From NCBI GenBank assembly GCA_021850625.1, contig JAJZLJ010000002.1:20338-84337 (forward strand): DNA of 64,000 nt, read 5' to 3'. The position numbers and the translations under genes were made by a program. Source of the DNA: Microcaldota archaeon. Its GTDB lineage: Archaea > Micrarchaeota > Micrarchaeia > Micrarchaeales > CABMGC01. How positions within the stretch are numbered: position 1 is the stretch's first letter; each line of letters starts with the position of its first letter. The notes beneath the pieces are model-generated. The model saw only the letters and a list, made by a program, of their open reading frames with translations, was not told the origin of the DNA and did no database searches. Shown piece by piece: positions 13,938 through 56,673 of this stretch.

Positions 13938-14453
13938 TTATGTTTGCTTTGCAGTTACTAATGCTAATTCTGCATACTGTTGTGTTCCTGCATTTGTATA
14001 AGTAAGCCATAATTGACCTGATATTGCAGAACCAACTGTTGGAGTTCCTGAACCGTCAGTTGGAACTGTAACAGAGTATGTAGAACCAGATACCATTGAA
14101 GTAGAACCAGTAACTATTTGATTAGCGGTTACACCTAATGCAGTTAATTCAGCTAATGTAGAAGTTTGTTGGAACTTTGCAAGATTTGAAGTATTTAAGA
14201 AATATACATTTGCGTTAGTGTAAGACTGTCCTGAACTTTGGCCAATTGTTACAATTATATTTTGACCAACGTATACTGGGTTTTGACATATAAAGCCAGA
14301 CTGTGCTACACAAGAAGTAGGCAGTGTAGATCCTCCAAAGATTCCCAATTCAAAAAGTGCTACTAGAACTATAGCTATGATCAATATGGCCCAGCCATAT
14401 GTCATAAGATATTCCATAGCGCTTTGTCCTTTTAATAATTTCATGGTTACCAC
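13938..14453 (-). CDS. Class III signal peptide type IV pilin-like protein (short form)
   Basis: MKLLKGQSAMEYLMTYGWAILIIAIVLVALFELGIF then CVAQSGFICQNP. Confidence 0.85.
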   Translation of the reverse strand: MVTMKLLKGQSAMEYLMTYGWAILIIAIVLVALFELGIFGGSTLPTSCVAQSGFICQNPVYVGQNIIVTIGQSSGQSYTNANVYFLNTSNLAKFQQTSTLAELTALGVTANQIVTGSTSMVSGSTYSVTVPTDGSGTPTVGSAISGQLWLTYTNAGTQQYAELALVTAKQT

Positions 14454-19690: not shown

Positions 19691-20977
19691 CTATGAAAAA
19701 GTAATTGTTACTAGACCATTCTCTGCTTCTGGAGCGCCTGCACCTGCAGTGTTAGTAATATCACTAACAGAAAGAGCATTTGCCCAACTTGAACCTCCAC
19801 CACCGCCACCGGTATTAAAAGAACTGCTTGCGCCGCCGCCATAATAACCACATCCGCCTCCGCCGTTACCACTACCTCCATAACCACCCAGATAATTTGA
19901 ACCTCCATCACTACCACCAGTGGTCTGAGTACCGCCAGCACCATATGGAGACCCCATACCATTATTTCCAATTAGCCCACCGCCATTACCACCATTATTA
20001 CCAGTATTATAACTACCTCCACCTCCTCCAGCAGCAACGATTATAACGCCAGGATTTGATAATTCATTAGTTATGCTGATTGCTGAACAACCGCCACCGC
20101 CACCGCCGCCTGGAGTTCCACTTCCACCGCCATTTATGCCGCCTCCGCCTCCGCCACCACTTCCAAACCAGGCAATTCCACCTCCACCAACAAAGACATA
20201 TAACTCTGTTCCAAAAGATACAGGATATGTTCCAGAAATATAACCCCCATAACCACCGCTGGAATAAAAAGAATATCCTCCTCCTCCACCAGAAAGTTGC
20301 ACATTAGCCAAATTACAACCTAAAGGGACAAACATATTATACGGTCCCCCAGGTGTACTAAATGTAGTTGATGTGTCAGAGCAAGCAACAAGACCGCTTG
20401 ATAAAGTTGCCTTTGTTGAAAGAGATGCAATTTGACTCACTTGATTAGGTATGCCATTTTTCGTGTACTGTATCCATAAGGTTCCAGAGAATAGAGTTCC
20501 TAAACTACTTGATTTTAATTTGCAAGTAAACAATAATGTCGAAGTACTGCCAGATATTGCATTTATTGGTAAATTATACTCGGTAGAAAAACTTGATGGT
20601 GCAGCAGTAGTATTTGAACATGCTACGCCAGTTATTGTAATCTCAGTACCTGATTCCTGACCAAAAGTTACTAATACATTACCCGTTGTATTCAATTGAG
20701 GATTAGAACACAAGAAACTGGATTGTGCAACACATCCAGAAGAAGATCCCGAAATATTAAATATCCCAAGTTCAAAAAAAGTAACAAGAATTACTGCAAT
20801 AAGAAGAATAGCCCAACCATAAGTCATTAAATATTCCATTGCACTTTGAGCATAAATAGATTTTGATAAAACTCTGTCAAGTTTATTATCAGAATTTTTT
20901 CTGCTTAGACAAAATCTTTTTAAAAAATGATTTATCGATAAACCATTTTTATCATTACTTGAAGTTATATTGTCCAT
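19691..20977 (-). CDS. Class III signal pilin-like protein with C-terminal Gly-rich (ALK-type) domain
   Basis: YAQSAMEYLMTYGWAILLIAVILVTFFELGIF...CVAQSSFLCSNP, then GGGGGYSFYSSGGYGGYISG...VFVGGGG...VIIVAAGGGGGSY... Confidence 0.85.
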   Translation of the reverse strand: MDNITSSNDKNGLSINHFLKRFCLSRKNSDNKLDRVLSKSIYAQSAMEYLMTYGWAILLIAVILVTFFELGIFNISGSSSGCVAQSSFLCSNPQLNTTGNVLVTFGQESGTEITITGVACSNTTAAPSSFSTEYNLPINAISGSTSTLLFTCKLKSSSLGTLFSGTLWIQYTKNGIPNQVSQIASLSTKATLSSGLVACSDTSTTFSTPGGPYNMFVPLGCNLANVQLSGGGGGYSFYSSGGYGGYISGTYPVSFGTELYVFVGGGGIAWFGSGGGGGGGINGGGSGTPGGGGGGGCSAISITNELSNPGVIIVAAGGGGGSYNTGNNGGNGGGLIGNNGMGSPYGAGGTQTTGGSDGGSNYLGGYGGSGNGGGGCGYYGGGASSSFNTGGGGGGSSWANALSVSDITNTAGAGAPEAENGLVTITFS

Positions 20978-28879: not shown

Positions 28880-29560
28880 CTATTTTGTAACAAATGTTAT
28901 ATTTGTTTCCATTATTGATAAATTTAAAGAACCATCGTAAGTATTGTTAGGTAGCTCCAATAATACAGATAGTTTACAAGTTCCGGAACATTTAGGGGTT
29001 GTATACGTGCCTTCTAATACACCAGTACTAGTCGGAACTGGATATGAGGAAAAATTAAGCACCTTAAAAGCGTTGGAAGATGTTGTCACATTGCTTATTA
29101 CAATTCCTTTAAATATTGATAAATAAAGGGTATAATTGTAGATGGAACCAGCTGTACTGCTGAACGTAGTGTTTGTATGTATTACTGCAACTTGATCATA
29201 AAGAGGAGGCAGTGGCAGTACAAGCACATGTGTTTGATTAGTAACGGTTTTGTTTCGCGACGCGTTTGTTCTTGTATTAATATCTGGATTATTTACAAGT
29301 ATTGACATATTTCTTGCGCCATTAAGATATGCCTTATATTCGGTCGTATTTTTAATATAAAATGTATTTATATTGTATATATGAAATGTAACATTTGTGA
29401 TATTAACCATATTGCTTGATTGATTTTTAGATATTGATGTAGTAGTTGAAATTAGATTTTGAGGCTGCATTGGAATGGAAATAAGTACGTATAATAAAAT
29501 AACAATTATTATAGCTACGACAGTTATAAAATAAAACTGAGTTTTTCCCATATTAATCAC
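28880..29560 (-). CDS. Membrane-anchored exported hypothetical protein
   Basis: N-terminal TM, sequon-rich exterior; overlaps the next gene by 1 nt. Confidence 0.5.
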   Translation of the reverse strand: MINMGKTQFYFITVVAIIIVILLYVLISIPMQPQNLISTTTSISKNQSSNMVNITNVTFHIYNINTFYIKNTTEYKAYLNGARNMSILVNNPDINTRTNASRNKTVTNQTHVLVLPLPPLYDQVAVIHTNTTFSSTAGSIYNYTLYLSIFKGIVISNVTTSSNAFKVLNFSSYPVPTSTGVLEGTYTTPKCSGTCKLSVLLELPNNTYDGSLNLSIMETNITFVTK

Positions 29561-31767
29561 TAAGTTCCTGGATTAGGAGTCCATTGTAATTGGTAAGAGT
29601 TGCCAATAGTACTTCCAGGAGGTAGAATATCAACACAATTACCAAATGGTTCTCCAAAACGCATAAGAGAGTAATAAAAATCACTTCCCGTAGCGGATAT
29701 TGAACTACCACTATTACAATCAAGACCAGTATCAGTATATATGGCACCATCGTATGGTGGAACAGAAGGAGTTTGAACTTGTGTTGCATACTGGGTGTTA
29801 GTCCAATAACCAAAACAATTTCCACTATTAATATCTTGTATTGTAGTACCTACCTCGTAATAACCAATATAGACTTCTATTGGTGCACCAGAAGGTGAAA
29901 TTTGACCAGTATTATAATTACAAGTCCACCCCATTGGAATCCATGCCTCCATATAATTATAAGCACTGCCCCATTGTGCAGTTTCAGTTATGTCGTTTTT
30001 GATATCTTTTAAAGGAAAGTATGGAGCATCAGAACCACTATAACCACCGTTTGAACTTGTCCAACTATTAAATTGAAATAGAAGAGGAGTTCCCCAAGAA
30101 ATACCACCAGTAATTTGAGCATAAGGATCCTGATTTAAAGTATTGTTATAGCCACAACCAACAAACCAGTTATTGCTTGTTGCTATATTTGAATAGCCAG
30201 TAGGAAAAGGAAACCCTGCTTCACTATAAGACGCTGGATTGCTTATTAATGTAAAACTCAAGGTATTAGCTGGTAGTCCATCACCTGTAGCAACAGATAA
30301 ACCAACTTGATAAACAAATTGTGGCGACCATACAGTATTAGAGCCATATGGAATTGTTTGTATATAAGTGCTAGTTCCACAACCTGTGCTTGGACCATTT
30401 GGTGCTGGTCCAGATATATCATAGTAAGTAACAGTAGGATCAGCTCGTATATAATATGCAGTAGCAAGAGTGTTTACAGGATATTGTGAACTTGGTATTG
30501 TGATAGAGGTAAGTGAACTTGATGTTGATAATGGACCCGCAACATTTGGCGTACTACTAAAACCCCATCCTTCGAATATGAATGGTGTTCCAGAACCAAT
30601 ATTACAAGTAGGCTGTGCAATTATAGTTTCAGGGAGAAGATCTTGCGCGGACGGTGCAAAATCATAGAAAGGATTTGGTGGTAGCGTTCCTGAACCGATA
30701 GTTACACACTGTGCAACTTCTTGTGAGTATGTTGCTGCATAACCACCACCTAATGGGGCATAATTATTGAAGTTTGTATAAGTTCCAGAATCAGCTGCTG
30801 GTTGTGCATACGCACCGGCACCAACCCACGAATCACCATTAGGAGGACTACCTCCACCTCCACCGCCTGTCACAGTTGATGGAGGAGTTGAGGAAGATGA
30901 GGAGGAACTTGAAGATGAAGAAGAGGATGATGTTGAGGAAGAAGATGAGGATGATATTGAAGATGAAGATGAACTTGAAGAGGAGGAAGATGAGGATGAT
31001 ATTGAAGATGAAGATGAACTTGAAGAGGAGGAAGATGAGGATGAACTTGAAGAGGAAGAAGATGAGGATGATGATGAAGATGAAGATGAACTTGAAGAGG
31101 AGGAAGATGAGGATGAGGATGAACTTGAAGAGGAAGAAGATGAGGATGATGAAGGTGAAGTACCGCCACCAGGATTAGAGATTATTGGTGTTCCACCACC
31201 TACCGGTATTTTTATTATGTTATTTTGAAGCAAAACATTAACTGGATATGCATAACTTACTGAAGATCCTGCAGTTGAAAGTTTTGTTGCTGCTATTTTA
31301 TTATTGCAATTTGAAGCAAAGCATTCAGTATAATTAAAAAAGAATTGCGGCTCAAGTTGTGCGCCGTATGAAGGAGTGAAACCAGGGATTGTTGCTGTGC
31401 AGGTTACAGCAGTACCACTAGGAACATTGGAAGGAATACATGAGCCAGGAGCATAACTAGATGATGGTAAAAGTTTTATCCAGAATGGAAAAGGAGATTG
31501 TTGAAAATAGATTTCTTTGCCTAAAAGGTTTGTAAATTCCAAAAGTACTGTCGTACCTAATGAATTAGTACTAACTATAAGTTGATAGCATTGAAAGTTT
31601 TCTGATATATAACAATAAGAAGGGCTGTATGATGTATTAGAAGAATGAAAGAAAATAAAAAAGAAGATTATTACTGCTAACGCCAAAATTATTAATGCCC
31701 AGGCATAAGAACTAAGGTATTCTGTTGCTGATTGTAATTTCATTACTCCTCTTTTAGCCAAATCCAT
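29560..31767 (-). CDS. Class III signal pilin-like protein with poly-Ser stalk and large C-terminal ectodomain
   Basis: MKLQSATEYLSSYAWALIILALAVIIFFFIFF; ~90-residue Ser tract; Cys-containing ectodomain. Confidence 0.8.
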   Translation of the reverse strand: MDLAKRGVMKLQSATEYLSSYAWALIILALAVIIFFFIFFHSSNTSYSPSYCYISENFQCYQLIVSTNSLGTTVLLEFTNLLGKEIYFQQSPFPFWIKLLPSSSYAPGSCIPSNVPSGTAVTCTATIPGFTPSYGAQLEPQFFFNYTECFASNCNNKIAATKLSTAGSSVSYAYPVNVLLQNNIIKIPVGGGTPIISNPGGGTSPSSSSSSSSSSSSSSSSSSSSSSSSSSSSSSSSSSSSSSSSSSSSSSSSSSISSSSSSSSSSSSSSISSSSSSSTSSSSSSSSSSSSSSTPPSTVTGGGGGGSPPNGDSWVGAGAYAQPAADSGTYTNFNNYAPLGGGYAATYSQEVAQCVTIGSGTLPPNPFYDFAPSAQDLLPETIIAQPTCNIGSGTPFIFEGWGFSSTPNVAGPLSTSSSLTSITIPSSQYPVNTLATAYYIRADPTVTYYDISGPAPNGPSTGCGTSTYIQTIPYGSNTVWSPQFVYQVGLSVATGDGLPANTLSFTLISNPASYSEAGFPFPTGYSNIATSNNWFVGCGYNNTLNQDPYAQITGGISWGTPLLFQFNSWTSSNGGYSGSDAPYFPLKDIKNDITETAQWGSAYNYMEAWIPMGWTCNYNTGQISPSGAPIEVYIGYYEVGTTIQDINSGNCFGYWTNTQYATQVQTPSVPPYDGAIYTDTGLDCNSGSSISATGSDFYYSLMRFGEPFGNCVDILPPGSTIGNSYQLQWTPNPGT
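30888..31160. repeat. Tandem DNA repeat, 45-bp-like unit, encoding the poly-Ser stalk
   Basis: Repeated gatgatattgaagatgaagatgaacttgaagaggaggaagatgag and variants. Confidence 0.85.
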
Positions 31768-38580: not shown

Positions 38581-39231
38581 TTATTTGTTTCTGGATCTTA
38601 ATTTTTTATTTGAAACCTTAGATTTAAAACTGCGCTTTCTTTTATTATTGTACGTTTTTAGTTTATTCCCAAACTTTGGTTTTTTAACCTTTTTAATTAC
38701 GAGATAAAGTATAATTATCAAGATTATTATTGCAAGTACAATTAATATTTGGTATAGTATTGGCAAACCTATTGGTTTTAATGCAGTTACTCCAACTATC
38801 TTTGCAACTCCTTGTTGTAAAATAGCTCCACTACCTGAAATTGTAGTATTTGATAGTTCTATTGCTTGTAATATTCCGCTCCAATGCATCCCAGGTTTAT
38901 TCTTATTTGATGGCATAAATACAGTAACGTTTAAGGTTAACTGACCTCCTGGAGGAATTGTTCCATTCATTTGTGAAATAGAAAATGTAGGAGTAGTTGA
39001 GTTAGGTATGGTATTTAATGTAGGCAATATTATTTTAAAATTTAAAGATTGAGCACCTCCGTTTATTAATGTGAAGGGTAGTGAAGCACTGCCACCTATG
39101 CTTGCATTAAAATTTAACTGTCCAGCAACTTCCCCGAATTGAGCATAATTAAGATTAATAAAAAGAAAAGAAAAAATAAGAAAAAAACTAATTAAATGAA
39201 TACGATTAAAGTTCATATTACCATTTAACAA
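38581..39231 (-). CDS. Exported membrane-anchored surface protein
   Basis: Signal TM, beta-rich exterior, C-terminal TM plus Lys/Arg-rich tail; overlaps the upstream gene. Confidence 0.55.
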   Translation of the reverse strand: MLNGNMNFNRIHLISFFLIFSFLFINLNYAQFGEVAGQLNFNASIGGSASLPFTLINGGAQSLNFKIILPTLNTIPNSTTPTFSISQMNGTIPPGGQLTLNVTVFMPSNKNKPGMHWSGILQAIELSNTTISGSGAILQQGVAKIVGVTALKPIGLPILYQILIVLAIIILIIILYLVIKKVKKPKFGNKLKTYNNKRKRSFKSKVSNKKLRSRNK

Positions 39232-39737
39232 GAATTCTCAAATGTTATAGTTTGAGTATATGTACCTGAAGCCGTTCCGCCAGGAACTTGTAATCCAAAA
39301 TAAATAGTGTTGGATGTTGAAGGTGATGAAACGGTTGGTGCGGATATTTGTATAGCCGTATCCACTAATGAGGTTGTTAAAGAAATTCCATTGTATGAAG
39401 ATTGAGATATCCCGTTATAGTTTGTTTGACCTACTGCAAAGCTATTACCACCTGAAGTCCAAGTAGTGCCTTCTAAAAGAATATTTGCAGCTACATTTCC
39501 GCCATTGTCAGTATCTGTTACTAGAACGTTTGTGTCGTATGAAGAAGTAGGTGCCATATTTCCAAAGGTAATCGAGTTAGGAGAAAGTCCTATAAAACAA
39601 GCAGATGAAACCACTACATTTGCATTGACATTTGAATTTCCTGAAGAAGGATATATCAAAGGCAATGACAAATAGCCCATTATAGCGATGACGCCAGCAA
39701 AAATACTTAACAATCCTATATTGCGTTTTCCAAACAT
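39225..39737 (-). CDS. Small surface protein with Cys-terminated Ig-like domain
   Basis: N-terminal TM; CFIGLSPNSITFGNMAP...VPGGTASGTYTQTITFENSC-end, shared with the C-terminus of 39822-44327. Confidence 0.6.
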   Translation of the reverse strand: MFGKRNIGLLSIFAGVIAIMGYLSLPLIYPSSGNSNVNANVVVSSACFIGLSPNSITFGNMAPTSSYDTNVLVTDTDNGGNVAANILLEGTTWTSGGNSFAVGQTNYNGISQSSYNGISLTTSLVDTAIQISAPTVSSPSTSNTIYFGLQVPGGTASGTYTQTITFENSC

Positions 39738-39821: not shown

Positions 39822-42800
39822 TTAGCACGAATTTTCAAAAGTTATTGTTTCTTGATATGTTCCTGAAGCCGTTCCACCAGGAACTCTCAAACCCAGATAT
39901 ATTGAATTGTTTCCAATAGAAGGTATGCTAATCAAAGTATTTGATAATGTCAGAGTAAGTTTAGATGCTGCAGAAAAGGGAATATTATTTGTTGCTGCCC
40001 AGGTGGTATTACTTACACCAAACTGCATAGGTCCAATCCAATTTCCTCCAAAAATATACATATATGCACCTGCATTGCCATTATTTGTATCACGTATGGA
40101 ATTTATTGTATTTATACTTGAGGATGGATTTAAAGAACCGAAATTTATCGAGTTTTGATTTAAAGAAATTGTACAAGTTAAAGAGGAGGAAACAGAAACA
40201 GCAGTACCTTGAAGTGAATAGGGCATAACGCCATTAGGAGGGTAAGTTCGTATAATTAATCCATTCATATATTGTGTTGAAGTACTAGCTGCTGCATCTC
40301 CCACAAATCCAAGATAATTTCCATTGTCTGATACACTATAATTATTAGATGGATTGCTACTTATTTCAGTTCCATAAATTCCAGGAGTGGTAGATAAAAA
40401 CAATTGAGCATTTCCATTGCGTATAGTTAGACCCATGAGCAGCCATTCGTTTGACCATATTCCAGTATTTGGCGGTGCTGTCCATAAAGTCCATGAACTA
40501 GAAGAAGCAATACCATACCACCCTACACCATTTCCAACTCTAGCAATTTGACCATTGCCTAAAGAATTAACTAAAAAGAATAAATCATCCAAATTTTGGG
40601 TGTAGGTATAGTACTCTATTATTGAATTTTCAGTCTGATTGTTTGCAATTGTATACAAATAATCACCATTGGCGCCATTTGCATAAAATGCGTTTAGTCC
40701 AAATGGAGAACCAGATGGTGCAGAGGTAGTAATTCCCGCAGTGCCTGAAGAGGTCCAACCGTTTAATGATCCACCATTAAAATAATTATTAAAAATATAA
40801 TTACCATTGTCATACTGTGCATATGTTGATGTTGCAGTTGGAAACTCGCCTATACCATTAATTCCAGTATTTGAAAGTAAGTTTAAGGTATTACTTGCAA
40901 AACCTAAATACAAGGGATAAATTGAATTTGAAGAGATACCATATGGTAATTTTGTCCATATAGTAATATTTCCAGTGGTATTTTGCTCTATCCACGAAGG
41001 TAAAATAGCTCCGCTAGTATTAAATATCTCAAAATTAGCTAGATTTCCATTATACTGAAGATAATTTTTATAAATGCTTTCGTTTATACTTATTAATTGT
41101 TGAAATGCTTCCTGCACAGAAGCAGTTTGATTATTAACAATACATAGTGGAGCATAGTAAAGTATATTTGAAGGAGTACTGCTAGGCAGATTAATTATAC
41201 ATACATCTTTTTTTGTAGTTTCAGGTAAATAATTACCATTTCCAGAAGTTAATAAGGTAATATTGTATAGGCCATTACCAGAAGAATGAAAATCATAAAT
41301 GGTATTGAAGTAGGTATTAGAGACCAATGCTCCGTTTATATAAAGGGTTGAGTCTAGTTGATTTCCAACAGTTAAAATTGAATAATTAATAGGAATAGTG
41401 CTTTCATTATTTAGTATTACCTTTTGTAGATTTAGCTTTAAAGATGGAGGTGATTGAGTTACGAGTAATATAGCATTTGAAGTTAACCCCGAATTTGTAT
41501 CATTAACAGATATAATATAATTTCCAGGAGATAAACAGCTATTAATATATGGAGAAGATCCACAAACAGTGTATGACACAGTATTTGTTGATGGACCAGC
41601 AGCTAGAACACCATTGATAAATAATTTTAATGTATCTCCATTTTTTGAGCTTATTCCATTAATAATATCGGAAGTTCCATACGGAACTGGATTATATTGA
41701 AGTTCAATTATCGGTGTTTTTGAGGATTGAGGAGTACCAAATGATGCCGAAGGCATAATGCCGTTAGGAGGATAGTTACGTATTATAAAGCTATTCCAGT
41801 AGGTTATGTATGAAGAACCTAAACCATCACCTATCAATCCAATATAATTACCATTATTTGCAATAGAAAATCCAGAGTTTGTAAGAGTTCCTAACGTTGA
41901 AAGATAGTTTGATACACTACCGATATACGCATTTGCAGTAGAGCTTGATATGACAATATCATATTTATACCAGGTATTTTTTGAGACGTCTATTCCTGGA
42001 CTTGGAGCCGACCATGAAGTCCACGAAGCAGTTTTTGCAAGACCGGAATAATCGCTACCACCTCTGCCATCTAGTCTTACCATCTGCCCTGCACCGGCGG
42101 AGTTTGTAAGAAAAAACATATCCCCAAGACCAGTAGTATATACATCAAAACTTATAATCGAGTTTTGAGACAAACTACTAATAGGTATATACATATAATC
42201 CCCATTTGCAGAATTTGCGTATAATGCATTATCGCTATCGTAATGACTTCCAGATGGAGCTGTATTTTTTTGTCCAGCCGTACCATGTATAGTCCAACCA
42301 GAAGTGGATGGTGGTGCTACATTATAATAGTTAAACACACTTGATCCGTCATCATATTGCGCATATGAAGTGCTTAATTGTGGTGCTTCGCCAACATCAA
42401 TCGTATTAAATAAATTTTGTGAAGTTAATGCAAAACCCATATATATTGTTATACTGTTGCTGGAAGGTATGCTATTATAAAGTTTTAACCAATAAATAGT
42501 GTTTGTAGAACTATAAAAATAAACCGAGTTTGTTGGATTGTTTAGTAGAGTATTACTTGTACTTCCTTCCATCCAACTTGGAATTATAGTTCCATTAAAA
42601 TAAAAGAATTCTATATTGCTAAGATTTTTAGCTTCGTAACTCTCAAAAGCTAAACTGTTTACCGAAAGCTGATATTGAAAAGGTATTGGTGTTGGAATAT
42701 TTTGTGAATTGGATAAAGTAATTGGAACAAATGTATTTATTGTAGATGGTATTACTATTACAGTAGGATCTATTGAAGAGTAATTATTATTACCTGATGT

Positions 42801-44327
42801 ATCAAAGGTTATAGTTGCATTAGATGTATAAGATAATGTATAAATAAAACTTTTATTTATTGATGTATAATTACCACTTCCGTCAATTATAGTACCATTG
42901 CTAAATTTTATTGAATAACTAAATTTTGCATAATTATTGTTCCCTAAAATACCCTGTAGAGATATTGATAAATTATAATTTTTTTGATTGTTTATAATTG
43001 GGATATAAAATTTACCAGTCGTATTAGCTTTATTAAATGATACTCCATCAATAGATATTGACATATTAGGTAATGCTTTTTCAACTGAAATATTATAATA
43101 TGAAAGAGTAGATTGATTGTTGTAAGTTATAAAATTTACATTGTTTCCGGCAGGAATAAACTTTCCATTTTGTTTTATTAAACCGTAACTCAAATTGAAT
43201 GTTTTATTATTTTGGCTTATGGATATCTTTTTAGTTTTTATATAATTTTTGAAATTTAAAAGTTGTTGATTGTTTAAAGAAGTAAGATTATCGATAATTG
43301 AATAGTTTAAAGATATGTTACTGCTAATTGAGGTATTTATGCTATTGATAGAAGCATTATAGGTAGTGTTAAGATTTTGATTTAATATTTTAGAACTTAT
43401 TGCGCTTTTTATATTGCTGATATCTACAGTTGAGTTTAAAGATCCTTTAGTTTTTGAAGAGATTAACAACGGTTTAATAAATACACCATTTGACATATTG
43501 AAAGTCTTGAATAATGGTAGTATTATTTTTGAAAGATTACTTGGGGCATAATTAGAATAATTATATTGAATGTTTTGAGTAATTATTTTATTAGTTATAT
43601 TAGTAAAATTATTTTTATTAGAGAGATTTGTATTTTTATTGAGTAAAGAGGTATTTACTGATGAAAAATTAATCGTTGTAGTATAACCAGAAGATATATT
43701 TTCTTCATTTTTAATTGGAAAGTATAAGATATTTCCATCTGAAATATTATTTATTATAATAGTATTTTCTATTCCTAGATCCTTAAAGATTATCGTGTTT
43801 GAATTAGAAGATTTTTCTATTCCGCCGTATGATAAATACCAAGTTGTATTAAAAGGTAGGCCTTCTTCGTAGAACTTAATAATCTTCAAGGCTGTGTAAT
43901 TTATTAATATTTTATTTGAATAATTAAATTTGCTTAAATTTATATCGTTTATTGATGGAATAAAAATTTCTTCCCCATATGAGGCGTTAGGTATAAATAG
44001 TGTTTGAATATTATTTTTACTATTATTTTGTATTGATATTGAATTTGGAGTAACTGAGTTAAAAACATCTGAATAATTATTTATATATACCTCCCAGGAC
44101 ATATTTTCCGGTAGACCATTTTCTATTATACTTATGTTTTTATAATATGGCTCAGTGTAATTATTTAATAAAATAGTATTTGTATTTATGCTAGAATACG
44201 ATTGGTTAGATATAATAGAATTATTTATGGTATTATTAATAGAGATACCACTATTTGTAAGATTTGTCAAAGTTAAAAACAATAAAGGAAATAATAGAAT
44301 AATAAATAAATTAGAGTATCTAAACAT
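39822..44327 (-). CDS. Giant surface protein with two DUF2341-like modules
   Basis: 1501 aa; signal peptide; duplicated F.YFNGTIIPSWMEG...YWLKLYNSIPSSNSITIYMGFA / FEIFNTSGAILPSWIEQ...IWTKLPYGISSNSIYPLYLGFA, each followed by a homologous GE.P...YAQYD(D/N)G module. Confidence 0.75.
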   Translation of the reverse strand: MFRYSNLFIILLFPLLFLTLTNLTNSGISINNTINNSIISNQSYSSINTNTILLNNYTEPYYKNISIIENGLPENMSWEVYINNYSDVFNSVTPNSISIQNNSKNNIQTLFIPNASYGEEIFIPSINDINLSKFNYSNKILINYTALKIIKFYEEGLPFNTTWYLSYGGIEKSSNSNTIIFKDLGIENTIIINNISDGNILYFPIKNEENISSGYTTTINFSSVNTSLLNKNTNLSNKNNFTNITNKIITQNIQYNYSNYAPSNLSKIILPLFKTFNMSNGVFIKPLLISSKTKGSLNSTVDISNIKSAISSKILNQNLNTTYNASINSINTSISSNISLNYSIIDNLTSLNNQQLLNFKNYIKTKKISISQNNKTFNLSYGLIKQNGKFIPAGNNVNFITYNNQSTLSYYNISVEKALPNMSISIDGVSFNKANTTGKFYIPIINNQKNYNLSISLQGILGNNNYAKFSYSIKFSNGTIIDGSGNYTSINKSFIYTLSYTSNATITFDTSGNNNYSSIDPTVIVIPSTINTFVPITLSNSQNIPTPIPFQYQLSVNSLAFESYEAKNLSNIEFFYFNGTIIPSWMEGSTSNTLLNNPTNSVYFYSSTNTIYWLKLYNSIPSSNSITIYMGFALTSQNLFNTIDVGEAPQLSTSYAQYDDGSSVFNYYNVAPPSTSGWTIHGTAGQKNTAPSGSHYDSDNALYANSANGDYMYIPISSLSQNSIISFDVYTTGLGDMFFLTNSAGAGQMVRLDGRGGSDYSGLAKTASWTSWSAPSPGIDVSKNTWYKYDIVISSSTANAYIGSVSNYLSTLGTLTNSGFSIANNGNYIGLIGDGLGSSYITYWNSFIIRNYPPNGIMPSASFGTPQSSKTPIIELQYNPVPYGTSDIINGISSKNGDTLKLFINGVLAAGPSTNTVSYTVCGSSPYINSCLSPGNYIISVNDTNSGLTSNAILLVTQSPPSLKLNLQKVILNNESTIPINYSILTVGNQLDSTLYINGALVSNTYFNTIYDFHSSGNGLYNITLLTSGNGNYLPETTKKDVCIINLPSSTPSNILYYAPLCIVNNQTASVQEAFQQLISINESIYKNYLQYNGNLANFEIFNTSGAILPSWIEQNTTGNITIWTKLPYGISSNSIYPLYLGFASNTLNLLSNTGINGIGEFPTATSTYAQYDNGNYIFNNYFNGGSLNGWTSSGTAGITTSAPSGSPFGLNAFYANGANGDYLYTIANNQTENSIIEYYTYTQNLDDLFFLVNSLGNGQIARVGNGVGWYGIASSSSWTLWTAPPNTGIWSNEWLLMGLTIRNGNAQLFLSTTPGIYGTEISSNPSNNYSVSDNGNYLGFVGDAAASTSTQYMNGLIIRTYPPNGVMPYSLQGTAVSVSSSLTCTISLNQNSINFGSLNPSSSINTINSIRDTNNGNAGAYMYIFGGNWIGPMQFGVSNTTWAATNNIPFSAASKLTLTLSNTLISIPSIGNNSIYLGLRVPGGTASGTYQETITFENSC
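40205..41150 (-). repeat. Internal protein module copy 2 (DUF2341-like + YAQYDNG module)
   Basis: Homologous to the 41730-42690 copy; ends NGVMPYSLQGTA. Confidence 0.7.
41730..42690 (-). repeat. Internal protein module copy 1 (DUF2341-like + YAQYDDG module)
   Basis: Ends NGIMPSASFGTPQ; parallels copy 2. Confidence 0.7.
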
Positions 44328-44363: not shown

Positions 44364-45140
44364 CTATCGGTATTTTCTAAATAAGCTTAGTATGAATGAG
44401 ATAATGCCTCCTTTTTCATAATTTTGAACATTATTTGAATTTGATGAAAAGAATCTTGCCGACTCAAAAATATCTTTTGAAAATATAGAATGTTTATCTA
44501 AAAGAGTTGCGGGTATATGCATAGCTATACTTTTCGGAACTACTTCGACTTCTGGCAATGTTGTCAATGCTTTTGATCCAAACATTTCCTCTATTTCTTT
44601 TGTATGAAGTTCATATCTTTTATTTTTAACTCGGTTTATAATCATATTAGCTTTGAGACCATATTTTTTATAGCTATTTGCTAGTCTTACGCAACTTGTA
44701 CAAGAACTAAGTTCAGGTGTAGTTATTATAATGCCTTCATCACACATAGATGAAAACTCAGGAACTAAATAGCCAGGAGCTGTATCAAATATTATATAAT
44801 CATATTTTGACTTTTTAAGCTCAGTTATAAATCGTTGTATCTGCAGCAAGGATGGATCTTTTTGATCTGCAACAATACTACCAGGAATTACTCTTAAACC
44901 AGTAGGAGTGTGTGGTATTGCAACATCATTAATTTTTGCATTTTTAAGTAGTATATCTGAAATCCCTAAATTTTGATTTTCTATGCCTAAATGAAAACCA
45001 ACACTAGGATTTGCAATATCAAAATCTACCAATAGAACGTCATTGCCTAATTCTTGAAGAACAGTTGCCAAATTTACGGATATTGTAGTTTTACCTACGC
45101 CTCCTTTTTGGGATGATATTTTTATTAAATATGGTTTCAT
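44364..45140 (-). CDS. MinD/ParA-family ATPase
   Basis: ISSQKGGVGKTTISVNLA, VLLVDFDIANPSVG, YIIFDTAPG. Confidence 0.92.
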   Translation of the reverse strand: MKPYLIKISSQKGGVGKTTISVNLATVLQELGNDVLLVDFDIANPSVGFHLGIENQNLGISDILLKNAKINDVAIPHTPTGLRVIPGSIVADQKDPSLLQIQRFITELKKSKYDYIIFDTAPGYLVPEFSSMCDEGIIITTPELSSCTSCVRLANSYKKYGLKANMIINRVKNKRYELHTKEIEEMFGSKALTTLPEVEVVPKSIAMHIPATLLDKHSIFSKDIFESARFFSSNSNNVQNYEKGGIISFILSLFRKYR

Positions 45141-50296: not shown

Positions 50297-50519
50297 ACAA
50301 ATACCAATATTATAATTTAATTACTATTAATTACTAATATATATAGATTATTATTAAAAACGGTTTTGATTTTTGATATTAATATTTAAAATATACGAAG
50401 TATATAGATATATAAAAGGGTTTTTATTATTAATTTGAAGGTAAATTTTAAAATATTAAGAGTATATCATAGAAGGATAGATTAATTAGAGGTATATAAA
50501 TTAGTAATAAAAAATTTTT

Positions 50520-52304
50520 ATGGAAAAAATTAGAAAAGATAAACTTGTTTTGCAATCTGCAATGGAGTTGTTGCTTACATACGGGTTAGCAGTTTTATTA
50601 ATTTCTATATTAATAATAACATTTTATGAGTTGGGAGTTTTTAATTTGAATCCCTCAACTTTAAATACGTGTGTTCCACAAACTGGTTTTCTATGCCAAA
50701 CGCAGGTGTTGATTAACAATGGAACATATTATGCTACAATTTCAGATTTAAAAAACTCCATTGAGATTGTAGGTACAGCTTGTTCAAATAGTTCTAATGT
50801 TCCTTCATCTAGTAGTTTTATATCATCTAATTTAAATCTTGTTGAAAATCAACAGGAGATATTAACATTTCAATGTCCATTAACTTCAAGAGTTATAGGA
50901 GCTTCGTTTAAAGGCAGTATTTGGATTAAATATAATGAGGGTGGAAATTATAACCTAATAAGTGAAATAGGAATAGTTTATGGCGTTATACATACAACAA
51001 ATCAATCAAGTAGCACTACAGTAACAATTAGCGTAGGACAATCAACTAGTTTGACATCGGTTTTTTCATCAAGTACATCGACTATATCAGGTTCAACAAC
51101 TACATATGAAACAACAATACCAACAAGCGTTTCTACAACTTCTAGTTCTACCAGCACAGTTAGTACGGTTATAACATCCCCAAGTACTATAACCTCTCCA
51201 AGTACAAGTGTAATAACCTCATCAACAACCTCCACTACAGTTAGTACAACAAGCAGCAGCACTACTACAATTAGCAGCTTCAGTCAAAATACATATTATA
51301 GTTATTCAGATGTTCTGCTTGTTTGTAATCCAAGCAGTGCCGAAAGTTTAGATGTATGTAAATATTTTTCAAATGCAAGAATATCTGAAGGATTTAATAT
51401 TTCAAATATATTGAATTTAACAGATATACCTACTTCTGAAACAGTAAATGATATTGTTACAAACTCAATACTATCACAAATAAAAACAAAAATTGCAACT
51501 AGTAGAAATATAAATTATATAGTAACTACGTATGGAGTACCGCTTATAGACTCTGTAGATAGCTATTCTATAGACGCATTGATAGCAAATAACTTAACTG
51601 ATGTTTATAATATTGTAAATAATCCGTATTATGGCGTAATAAACTCTTTTGGAAAGGGTAATCTTGAAAATAACACATTTTCTAGTTCTAAATACCATAT
51701 GTATGAAGTTACACGTTTGGATGGCCCTACACTTCAGAGCATTTATAATTTAATAAAGAATGCCAATAATGCCAGTGATTCTGCCAATCATGGATATGTT
51801 TTATTGAATAGTTATAGTACAAGTAGTACTTATCAGGAGTATGAATCTCTTTTTACCAATCCAGCCCTTACATTAAATAGTTTAAATGTAAATAATAAAG
51901 TAGTTAATACAAGTTTTATAATTAATGTAAAAAATCTTTCTGGATACGCATCATGGGGTTCTAATTGTGGCTGTAGTGCAGGTCAAAACTCAAGCAAATG
52001 GAATCTTACATTCGTACCTGGGGCCATAGGAGAAACCTTTGTTTCTACAGGAGCAAGGACATTGATACAGTATCCTTGGACTGGTGGACAATCTTTGATC
52101 TCAGATTTAGTCATGGATAATATAACCGGAATAAGCGGATATGTAAGTGAACCATATTTATCTGCTGTTGAAGATCTTGAACTCTTATTCCCTGGATATT
52201 TTGAAGGGCTTACATTGGCCGATAGTTATTACAATGCAATGCCGTATTTGGATTGGAAAAGTGTCGTGATAGGAGACCCTAAGGCACATATCACAACAAT
52301 ATAA
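50520..52304 (+). CDS. Class III signal pilin-like protein with Ser/Thr stalk and TIGR03790-like domain
   Basis: LQSAMELLLTYGLAVLLISILIITFYELGVFN...CVPQTGFLCQT; (S/T)-rich linker; YIVTTYGVPLIDSVDS, NPYYGVINSFG, YEVTRLDGPTLQSIYNLI, GYASWGSN, GYVSEPYLSAVEDLELLFPGY, VVIGDPKAH. Confidence 0.75.
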   Translation: MEKIRKDKLVLQSAMELLLTYGLAVLLISILIITFYELGVFNLNPSTLNTCVPQTGFLCQTQVLINNGTYYATISDLKNSIEIVGTACSNSSNVPSSSSFISSNLNLVENQQEILTFQCPLTSRVIGASFKGSIWIKYNEGGNYNLISEIGIVYGVIHTTNQSSSTTVTISVGQSTSLTSVFSSSTSTISGSTTTYETTIPTSVSTTSSSTSTVSTVITSPSTITSPSTSVITSSTTSTTVSTTSSSTTTISSFSQNTYYSYSDVLLVCNPSSAESLDVCKYFSNARISEGFNISNILNLTDIPTSETVNDIVTNSILSQIKTKIATSRNINYIVTTYGVPLIDSVDSYSIDALIANNLTDVYNIVNNPYYGVINSFGKGNLENNTFSSSKYHMYEVTRLDGPTLQSIYNLIKNANNASDSANHGYVLLNSYSTSSTYQEYESLFTNPALTLNSLNVNNKVVNTSFIINVKNLSGYASWGSNCGCSAGQNSSKWNLTFVPGAIGETFVSTGARTLIQYPWTGGQSLISDLVMDNITGISGYVSEPYLSAVEDLELLFPGYFEGLTLADSYYNAMPYLDWKSVVIGDPKAHITTI

Positions 52305-52309
52305 AAAAT

Positions 52310-52419
52310 TGCCGTTGGTCGGATTTGAACCGACGACATTTCGGTATCTGAATTTATCAAACTTTTTTATTAAAAGTTTGTCTTCAGCCGAACGCTCTCC
52401 CGGACTGAGCTACAACGGC
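52310..52419 (-). tRNA. tRNA-Phe (GAA) with ~36-nt intron in the anticodon loop
   Basis: Reverse complement GCCGTTG...TTCGG-CTGAAG|intron|-CCGAA...GTCGG-TTCAAAT-CCGAC-CAACGGC; intron has CAAACTTTT/AAAAGTTTG stem and TTCAG pairing CTGAA (bulge-helix-bulge-like). Confidence 0.93.
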
Positions 52420-55402: not shown

Positions 55403-55816
55403 CTATAACTTCTTTTTATATAAATATACTGAAAGTATGAAAAGAGTAATTGTTATCAAATGAACCGCAGTACAGTACTCGCATATGTTTCCAACCATAT
55501 ATTCCGAATAAAGAAAATATACAATGCCTATAACTCCGATTCCGTTTAAAAATACCTTGGCAAAGATATCTTTAATAAAATAAAGAACAATTAATTCAGC
55601 TATAAAAAATGCTATGCCATATACGGCAACTGGTATTCCAAAAATATATCCATATGGACTGTTAATTACGTTATTGCAGTTTATCAGTCCGGATGTAGAA
55701 CATGCAAGAGGCACTCCCAAAAAGTGATATGTAGTAAGATATATTGAAATGAGCAATCCAAGTATGGCAAGTATGACCATTGCCCCTTTTTTGCTCTTTA
55801 ATTTTATCTTATTCAT
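55403..55816 (-). CDS. VKOR-family thiol oxidoreductase
   Basis: GLLISIYLTTYHFLGVPLACSTSGLINCNNVINSPYG, NICEYCTAVHLITI. Confidence 0.9.
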   Translation of the reverse strand: MNKIKLKSKKGAMVILAILGLLISIYLTTYHFLGVPLACSTSGLINCNNVINSPYGYIFGIPVAVYGIAFFIAELIVLYFIKDIFAKVFLNGIGVIGIVYFLYSEYMVGNICEYCTAVHLITITLFILSVYLYKKKL

Positions 55817-56673
55817 TATGACAATCTCTCTATATTTTTAACATACTGCTGTGAACAGACGTTGCTTGGTGTATTATTATCTGCTTCGCAAATCTTTGTT
55901 GTGATAAGATTGGCTGATCCTATTATAGACTGTGATTGTATTGTGGAACTGTTATAAATATCTGAGATTACAGTACTCCAGTTAAGAGTATCCAGAACTG
56001 TTAAAGGATCATATGTTGCTCCGATTAATGCGCTTGTATTTGCAAATAATATAAATGGAATACTGCCCTGGCCGTCGTATTGCGACTGCAGAGCTTCCTC
56101 AGCGGGGGTTGGAGTTTGTAGGGGTTTATAACTATTTCCTGATGGCTGGTTTGTTGTTTGCTCAACACCCACAAATGAGATATAATTGCTCGTATAAGTA
56201 GAGTTATAAAATGTAAAGGTAGGAGTTGATGGGGAATAATCGCTTGCGGAGGATGTCATATAATGAAGATTTGAGAAGTTGCCAAATCTTGATAGTGCGA
56301 TTACAAATGCCCATCGCATAGCTGCACAGTATGGACAGTAATCTGCACCTAAATACAAAATCTCTGGTTTTCCATTAAGCATAAGTATAGTAGTGTTTTT
56401 TATTGGAATTAGTCCGGAATATGAAGCAGTTCCGATTCCTATTTGATTATTCAAAGAATTAGGAGTATTAAGTTTTAGTAAAACAGACTGTGGAACTTGT
56501 ATATTATCATATGAAATCTCTGTTTTTGTTGTGGCTGAATTATTTGAAAATGTAAATATGGCAAGTAAGCCTACCACAATTAAGACAGCAAGAAGTATTG
56601 CATATATCAATATACGTTTCGTACCTTTGTCATTCGAATTAGCTTTTTGTGAAACTTCAGTTTGTTGTTCCAT
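55816..56673 (-). CDS. Membrane-anchored thioredoxin-fold DUF929-like protein
   Basis: [40 protein letters not shown]-terminal TM. Confidence 0.85.

Follow-up and report, generated by a model that had tools for sequence, protein, structure and literature searches.

Modular pilins that carry binding modules are established in bacteria, where they were surveyed by means of IPR012902 in a paper whose text is without archaea (PMC8179133). The peptidase families C25 (gingipains) and C50 (separase) both belong to clan CD, for which a strand-end rule gives the places of the catalytic His and Cys and was used here to place both residues (PMC4357240). A caspase-like fold may persist without this dyad, as in the HC-to-YS pseudo-orthocaspases, which are reported to be absent from Archaea (PMC6426788). 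Here we describe, by computational analysis, a gene of a Micrarchaeota genome that brings these themes together; positions refer to the 64,000-nucleotide stretch of DNA that was analysed as a whole (the window).

Architecture and pilin module

As read from its sequence, the open reading frame 50520-52304 is a three-part, predicted surface protein composed of a pilin module, a Ser/Thr linker, and a C-terminal TIGR03790 domain (Table 1), and a Pfam search of the 594-aa protein matched no model. A preliminary description of this DNA had proposed precisely such a fusion, which is borne out by the ORF, the HMM match, and the linker composition; its inference that the pilin-like N-terminus and the linker display the TIGR03790 domain on the surface is sound, and its guess at a DPANN genome was right. 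The linker in particular stands out against the flanking domains (69 % vs. ~20 % S+T), and none of 2000 shuffles of the protein reached its S+T level. The TATA-box-like element 24 nt before the ATG would fit a leaderless archaeal transcript. On the other side, the tRNA gene, which was missed by ARAGORN, begins 6 nt past the stop codon and is a neighbour outside the pilin/TIGR03790 system.

Table 1. Features of the pilin/TIGR03790 locus (window coordinates).
Feature	Position	Strand	Basis and remarks
TATATAA, TATA-box-like element	50493..50499	+	centred 24 nt upstream of ATG; read in sequence
Gene, pilin module + Ser/Thr linker + TIGR03790 domain	50520..52304	+	594 aa; ORF + HMM
Leader peptide MEKIRKDKLVL, residues 1-11	50520..50552	+	predicted prepilin-peptidase site L11/Q12; Glu at +5; Leu at -1 atypical
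Type IV pilin module, residues 1-160, helix + ~7 strands, conserved Cys51/Cys59	50520..50999	+	alignment, profile search, AlphaFold, Foldseek
Hydrophobic N-terminal pilin helix, residues 12-38	50553..50633	+	AlphaFold helix 3-37
Ser/Thr-rich linker, residues 161-258, 98 residues	51000..51293	+	69 % S+T
TIGR03790 domain, residues 259-594	51294..52301	+	HMM match 264-579 = 51309-52256; caspase/gingipain-like fold by model
Trp479 (domain W221), clan CD catalytic His place	51954..51956	+	after strand 215-220; Y.GHGS (C25) vs. GYASWGS; strand-end rule PMC4357240
Ser509 (domain S251), clan CD catalytic Cys place	52044..52046	+	just after strand 240-248; exact register inferred
Intron-containing tRNA gene, anticodon read as GAA (Phe)	52310..52419	-	Rfam RF00005, 59.2 bits

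The N-terminus reads MEKIRKDKLVL/QSAMELLLTYGLAVLLISILIITFYELGVF, with the slash at the predicted cleavage site, and corresponds to a hydrophobic helix of pilin type that carries Glu at +5. It shows what is expected of an archaeal type IV pilin, namely a short charged leader followed by such a helix (KDKLVL/QSAMELLLTYG) and a globular domain homologous to other pilins in a genome that also encodes assembly machinery, but has Leu in place of the expected Gly or Ala at -1. Residues 1-160 can be aligned with the window pilins 13938-14453 (-) and 19691-20977 (-), and the alignment covers the Q-S-A-M-E helix as well as the conserved cysteines. The ~120 residues past the N-terminal helix can also be aligned with other pilins of the genome. 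When a profile of pilin rows was run against the whole genome, 19 places were found, some of them weak; the 594-aa protein scored 224.6 bits but was itself a row of the profile. AlphaFold modeled the module with moderate confidence (pLDDT 70.8) as a long helix followed by strands, and Foldseek listed two archaeal pili among the top seven PDB matches, none of which was significant. Since no pilin of the genome reaches the cut-off of PF04021, the Pfam class III signal (best score 11.4 bits), this model is non-discriminating here. The earlier claim of a pilin signal therefore stands as to the pilin-type N-terminus but was drawn too narrowly, an entire pilin domain being present rather than a signal alone. 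Orthologues, for which the lack of a class III-type N-terminus had been named as a counter-argument, do carry one (L028, MRLRL/QSAMEYL; L029, KKRES/QSAMEYL).

The residue at -1 depends on the gene: most pilin-like proteins of the genus have Ala or Gly there, and several have Leu. A subset with Leu, often as KL/Q, comprises 29560-31767 (-), L131:3204-3677, L135, L069, and 50520, and possibly reflects a lineage-specific specificity of the prepilin peptidase. An alternative that we consider unlikely, though the strongest of its kind, is that the leader stays uncleaved and the protein is a membrane-anchored surface protein, in which the pilin helix would serve as anchor, the Ser/Thr stalk would span the surface layer, and the pseudo-peptidase would still bind its ligand. 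Leu at -1 in the 594-aa protein, in L028, and in several of the genome's divergent pilin-like proteins speaks for this reading, as do three TIGR03790 proteins of the genus (L009, L012, and L013) that lack a pilin module and are anchored by N-terminal signal/TM, C-terminal TM, and acidic tail. It is countered by Ser at this position in the syntenic orthologue L029 and Ala in the paralogue L015, and by the recurrence of Leu in L131:3204-3677, a pilin-like gene that lies close to the assembly ATPase and the other genes for pilus assembly. This recurrence suggests that the peptidase of the lineage may tolerate Leu at -1.

A predicted clan CD-like fold without the catalytic dyad

The NCBIfam TIGR03790 model matches the full protein at residues 264-579 (E 1.5e-28, 100.2 bits) and the domain alone with E 3e-29. 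With positions 2-316 of 316 covered and a score above the curated cut-off of 67 bits, family membership is full length and confirms the assignment first made from motif order; all motifs then listed (VTTYGVPL, NPYY, VTRLDGPT, GYASWGSN, EPY, and GDP) are present. An AlphaFold model of the domain, built from an alignment with 20 relatives, reached a pLDDT of 89.9 and a pTM of 0.92. Its first match in the PDB by Foldseek is gingipain K (C25; E 2e-4, prob 1.00, TM 0.52) and its second is separase (C50, prob 0.99), so that the predicted model has the caspase/haemoglobinase fold of clan CD, in line with the earlier suggestion of a caspase/gingipain-like fold.

Sequence comparisons were less telling. 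None of 21 TIGR03790 members matched PF01364, Pfam as a whole gave no credible match for members of the family, and the profile-profile comparison of TIGR03790 with C25 by hhalign was not significant; against 29 environmental C25 sequences it likewise yielded in-register fragments only, not significant. The C-terminal part scored higher against C25 (18.5) than all 100 column shuffles (maximum 18.1), which is weak support because such shuffling also destroys hydrophobic patterning. Kinship with the peptidases thus rests on structure, and homology to C25 is suggested by the comparison of one predicted model with solved folds. Searches of solved-structure sequences by phmmer and profiles returned nothing meaningful, no viral structure was matched by Foldseek at E below 0.001, and tblastn against plasmids gave no match.

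Given the non-significant profile comparison with C25, and given that Foldseek ranks 3 to 50 are nearly all periplasmic binding proteins or LacI-type domains, one might suppose that the similarity to clan CD merely reflects a general Rossmann-like alpha/beta topology and that the domain belongs to some unrelated fold that binds ligands. We regard this as very improbable, as the matches at these ranks have E values at least 29-fold worse than that of gingipain K and TM values (query) of at most 0.24, compared to 0.52. Moreover, independent in-register anchors (VTRL/GRLP, GYASWGS/Y.GHGS, and the terminal GDP) are found in both families, and strand ends fall where clan CD puts His and Cys.

At these places the dyad is missing. 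In clan CD peptidases of the C25 type, His and Cys follow strands 3 and 4; in the model, W221 follows strand 215-220 and F249-S251 follow strand 240-248, so that the Cys place falls within T248-S251, the exact partner of the catalytic Cys being uncertain by 1-2 residues. Among 46 TIGR03790 sequences, which have the motif GY.SWGS where C25 has Y.GHGS, the His column holds an aromatic residue in 42 and His in none (W34/F5/Y3/Q2/T1/M1), and there is no conserved Cys at the Cys place. By contrast, His and Cys are each kept in 28 of the 29 environmental C25 proteins. The clan CD His/Cys dyad is, on this computational evidence, absent from TIGR03790, and an active clan CD cysteine peptidase was accordingly rejected. 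With both catalytic residues lost, the domain probably serves as a binding module displayed on the surface, not as an enzyme.

It is nevertheless conceivable, if improbable, that TIGR03790 is an active enzyme that uses another active site (e. g., D94, R141, S220/N224, and E286) on extracellular protein or glycan. S18, D94, R141, E/D286, and D328 are near-invariant polar residues in archaea and bacteria alike, and D94, R141, E/D286, and G-D-P might form an unrecognised site. However, likely C25 counterparts exist for D94 and R141 (residues 352 and 399 of the protein) and for the terminal G-D-P (columns D178, R204, and G536-D537-P538); as these counterparts lie outside the catalytic pair, the three elements look structural. 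The family has neither a conserved His nor a conserved Cys, and S251 (39 of 46 sequences overall) varies in bacteria and has no His partner.

Two cysteine pairs of the domain, C11/C22 and C225/C227 (protein residues 269, 280, 483, and 485; window 51324-51359 and 51966-51974), are specific to the genus group and are possible disulfides or a metal site; the CxC pair C225/C227, which directly follows the lost-His loop, is replaced in L032/L033.

Distribution and recurrence of the fusion

The genome encodes three TIGR03790 proteins: the window gene, the pilin-fused paralogue L015 (802 aa), which at 60 bits falls just below the family cut-off, and L009 (1347 aa), in which signal/TM, TIGR03790 domain, and propeller are combined. 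Within a set of 60 genomes (own included) the family was found in the own genus only, namely in 5 of its 7 genomes; broader counts were 10 of 295 genomes for the phylum, 5 of 371 for the phylum of a Pacearchaeota match, and 22 of 297 for an acidobacterial phylum sample. The syntenic orthologue L029 has the identical three-part architecture (68 % identity in the domain), and the same helicase comes after it (62 % identity).

The domain is likewise preceded by an N-terminus of pilin type in L028, L023, L035, and L143, of which L023, from a distant member of the Micrarchaeota, combines it with CARDB repeats and L035, from Pacearchaeota, has a different pilin type (KKRGLSTVVSS). Pilin/TIGR03790 fusions, for which a survey across DPANN had been proposed at the outset, thus recur in other DPANN lineages, where the pilin N-termini differ. 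A tree of 46 TIGR03790 domains places the bacterial members in a single group and requires a minimum of four changes of the pilin label, so that the fusion was probably gained, or lost, more than once. Since the deepest rows of the tree have long branches, the number of changes carries some uncertainty, and L143 is a further case beyond the count from this tree. The domain of L050, the sole IMG/VR relative, groups with archaeal domains.

The pilus is not intrinsic to the TIGR03790 domain, as about 11 of the 18 archaeal members examined are not pilins. L009, L012, L013, and L026 are TIGR03790 proteins of 1237-1489 aa with S/T linkers, a C-terminal TM, and an acidic tail, one of them with a Vgb-like propeller, and their sequences suggest an alternative, non-pilin display of the same domain.

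Genomic context and proposed role

As pilus machinery, the genome was found to encode a single A24 prepilin peptidase at L130:2153-3010, an ATPase of the T2SSE type, and two T2SSF platform proteins. C-terminal modules occur on several further pilins of this genome as well, including LamG (near the assembly genes), DUF2341, a beta-propeller, and a Gly-rich module. In 29560-31767 (-) and L135:871-4575 (-), pilin-type N-termini pass into near-homopolymeric runs of serine, tens of residues long, and then into C-terminal domains without a Pfam match. Adjacent genes for VKOR-like and DsbA-like thioredoxin proteins at 55403-56673 (-), i. e., for extracytoplasmic disulfide formation, fit the Cys-containing pilins. 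Elsewhere in the window, the neighbouring surface proteins 39225-39737 and 39822-44327 (-) have a VPGGTASGTY.ETITFENSC-type end module in common and adjoin a MinD/ParA-like ATPase (44364-45140).

Micrarchaeota depend on host archaea, and this archaeon is tiny and probably host-dependent; more generally, many DPANN archaea live by contact with other cells, and the adhesins of this lifestyle are poorly known. ARMAN cells have been seen touching larger cells by pili-like structures, according to work cited in PMC5498576. The explanation we favour, with confidence that is about evenly balanced, is an archaeal modular pilin that uses a non-catalytic protease-fold domain as binding module, perhaps for contact with host cells. 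The N-terminal helix would insert the protein into the membrane, the single A24 peptidase would then remove the leader, and the protein would probably enter a type IV-like filament. An extended, probably glycosylated Ser/Thr stalk would hold the TIGR03790 domain off the filament or membrane, where the dyad-less clan CD fold would most likely bind, as a pseudo-peptidase, to a protein or peptide, plausibly one that the host archaeon exposes on its surface.

A wider generalisation is offered more tentatively, and we hold it to be somewhat doubtful: on repeated occasions, DPANN archaea may have equipped their pilins with a tip for host recognition, namely a dyad-less clan CD (pseudo-gingipain) domain; this would constitute a new archaeal class of modular pilins and would make TIGR03790 a family of pseudo-peptidases. 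The TIGR03790 family, named in no paper of the literature searched (most subscription papers lay outside it), and the modular-pilin idea were already known; as far as that literature reaches, their combination, the fold assignment, and the loss of the dyad appear to be new. Fold and missing catalytic pair turn the unknown TIGR03790 into a testable pseudo-peptidase family, and the recurrent pilin fusions in DPANN provide concrete candidate adhesins for a lifestyle based on contact, extending to archaea the modular-pilin idea described for bacteria.

Comparison with known systems

In the bacterial TIGR03790 members examined, the domain directly follows a short leader and no pilin module is present, whereas here the domain is fused to a pilin. 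With regard to fold, the C25 gingipains are the best match among solved structures and likely have the D, R, and GDP anchors in common with the domain, which differs from them in lacking the His/Cys dyad, a PF01364 match, and a significant profile match. The pseudo-orthocaspases resemble TIGR03790 in combining a caspase-like fold with replacement of His by an aromatic residue and of Cys by Ser (PMC6426788); however, they belong to the p20 (C14) family, while TIGR03790 is structurally nearest to C25 and extracellular by prediction.

The 594-aa protein has the architecture expected of a modular pilin, i. e., a pilin module joined to a non-pilus domain. The closest parallels are PilB (vWA) and PilC (lectin module) of Streptococcus sanguinis, in which, as here, an N-terminal pilin, a linker, and a C-terminal functional non-pilus domain follow one another (PMC8179133). 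In comparison to both, the present protein, as predicted from its sequence, has a pilin of archaeal type; its Ser/Thr stalk is long where theirs is a short loop, and its module has a protease fold.
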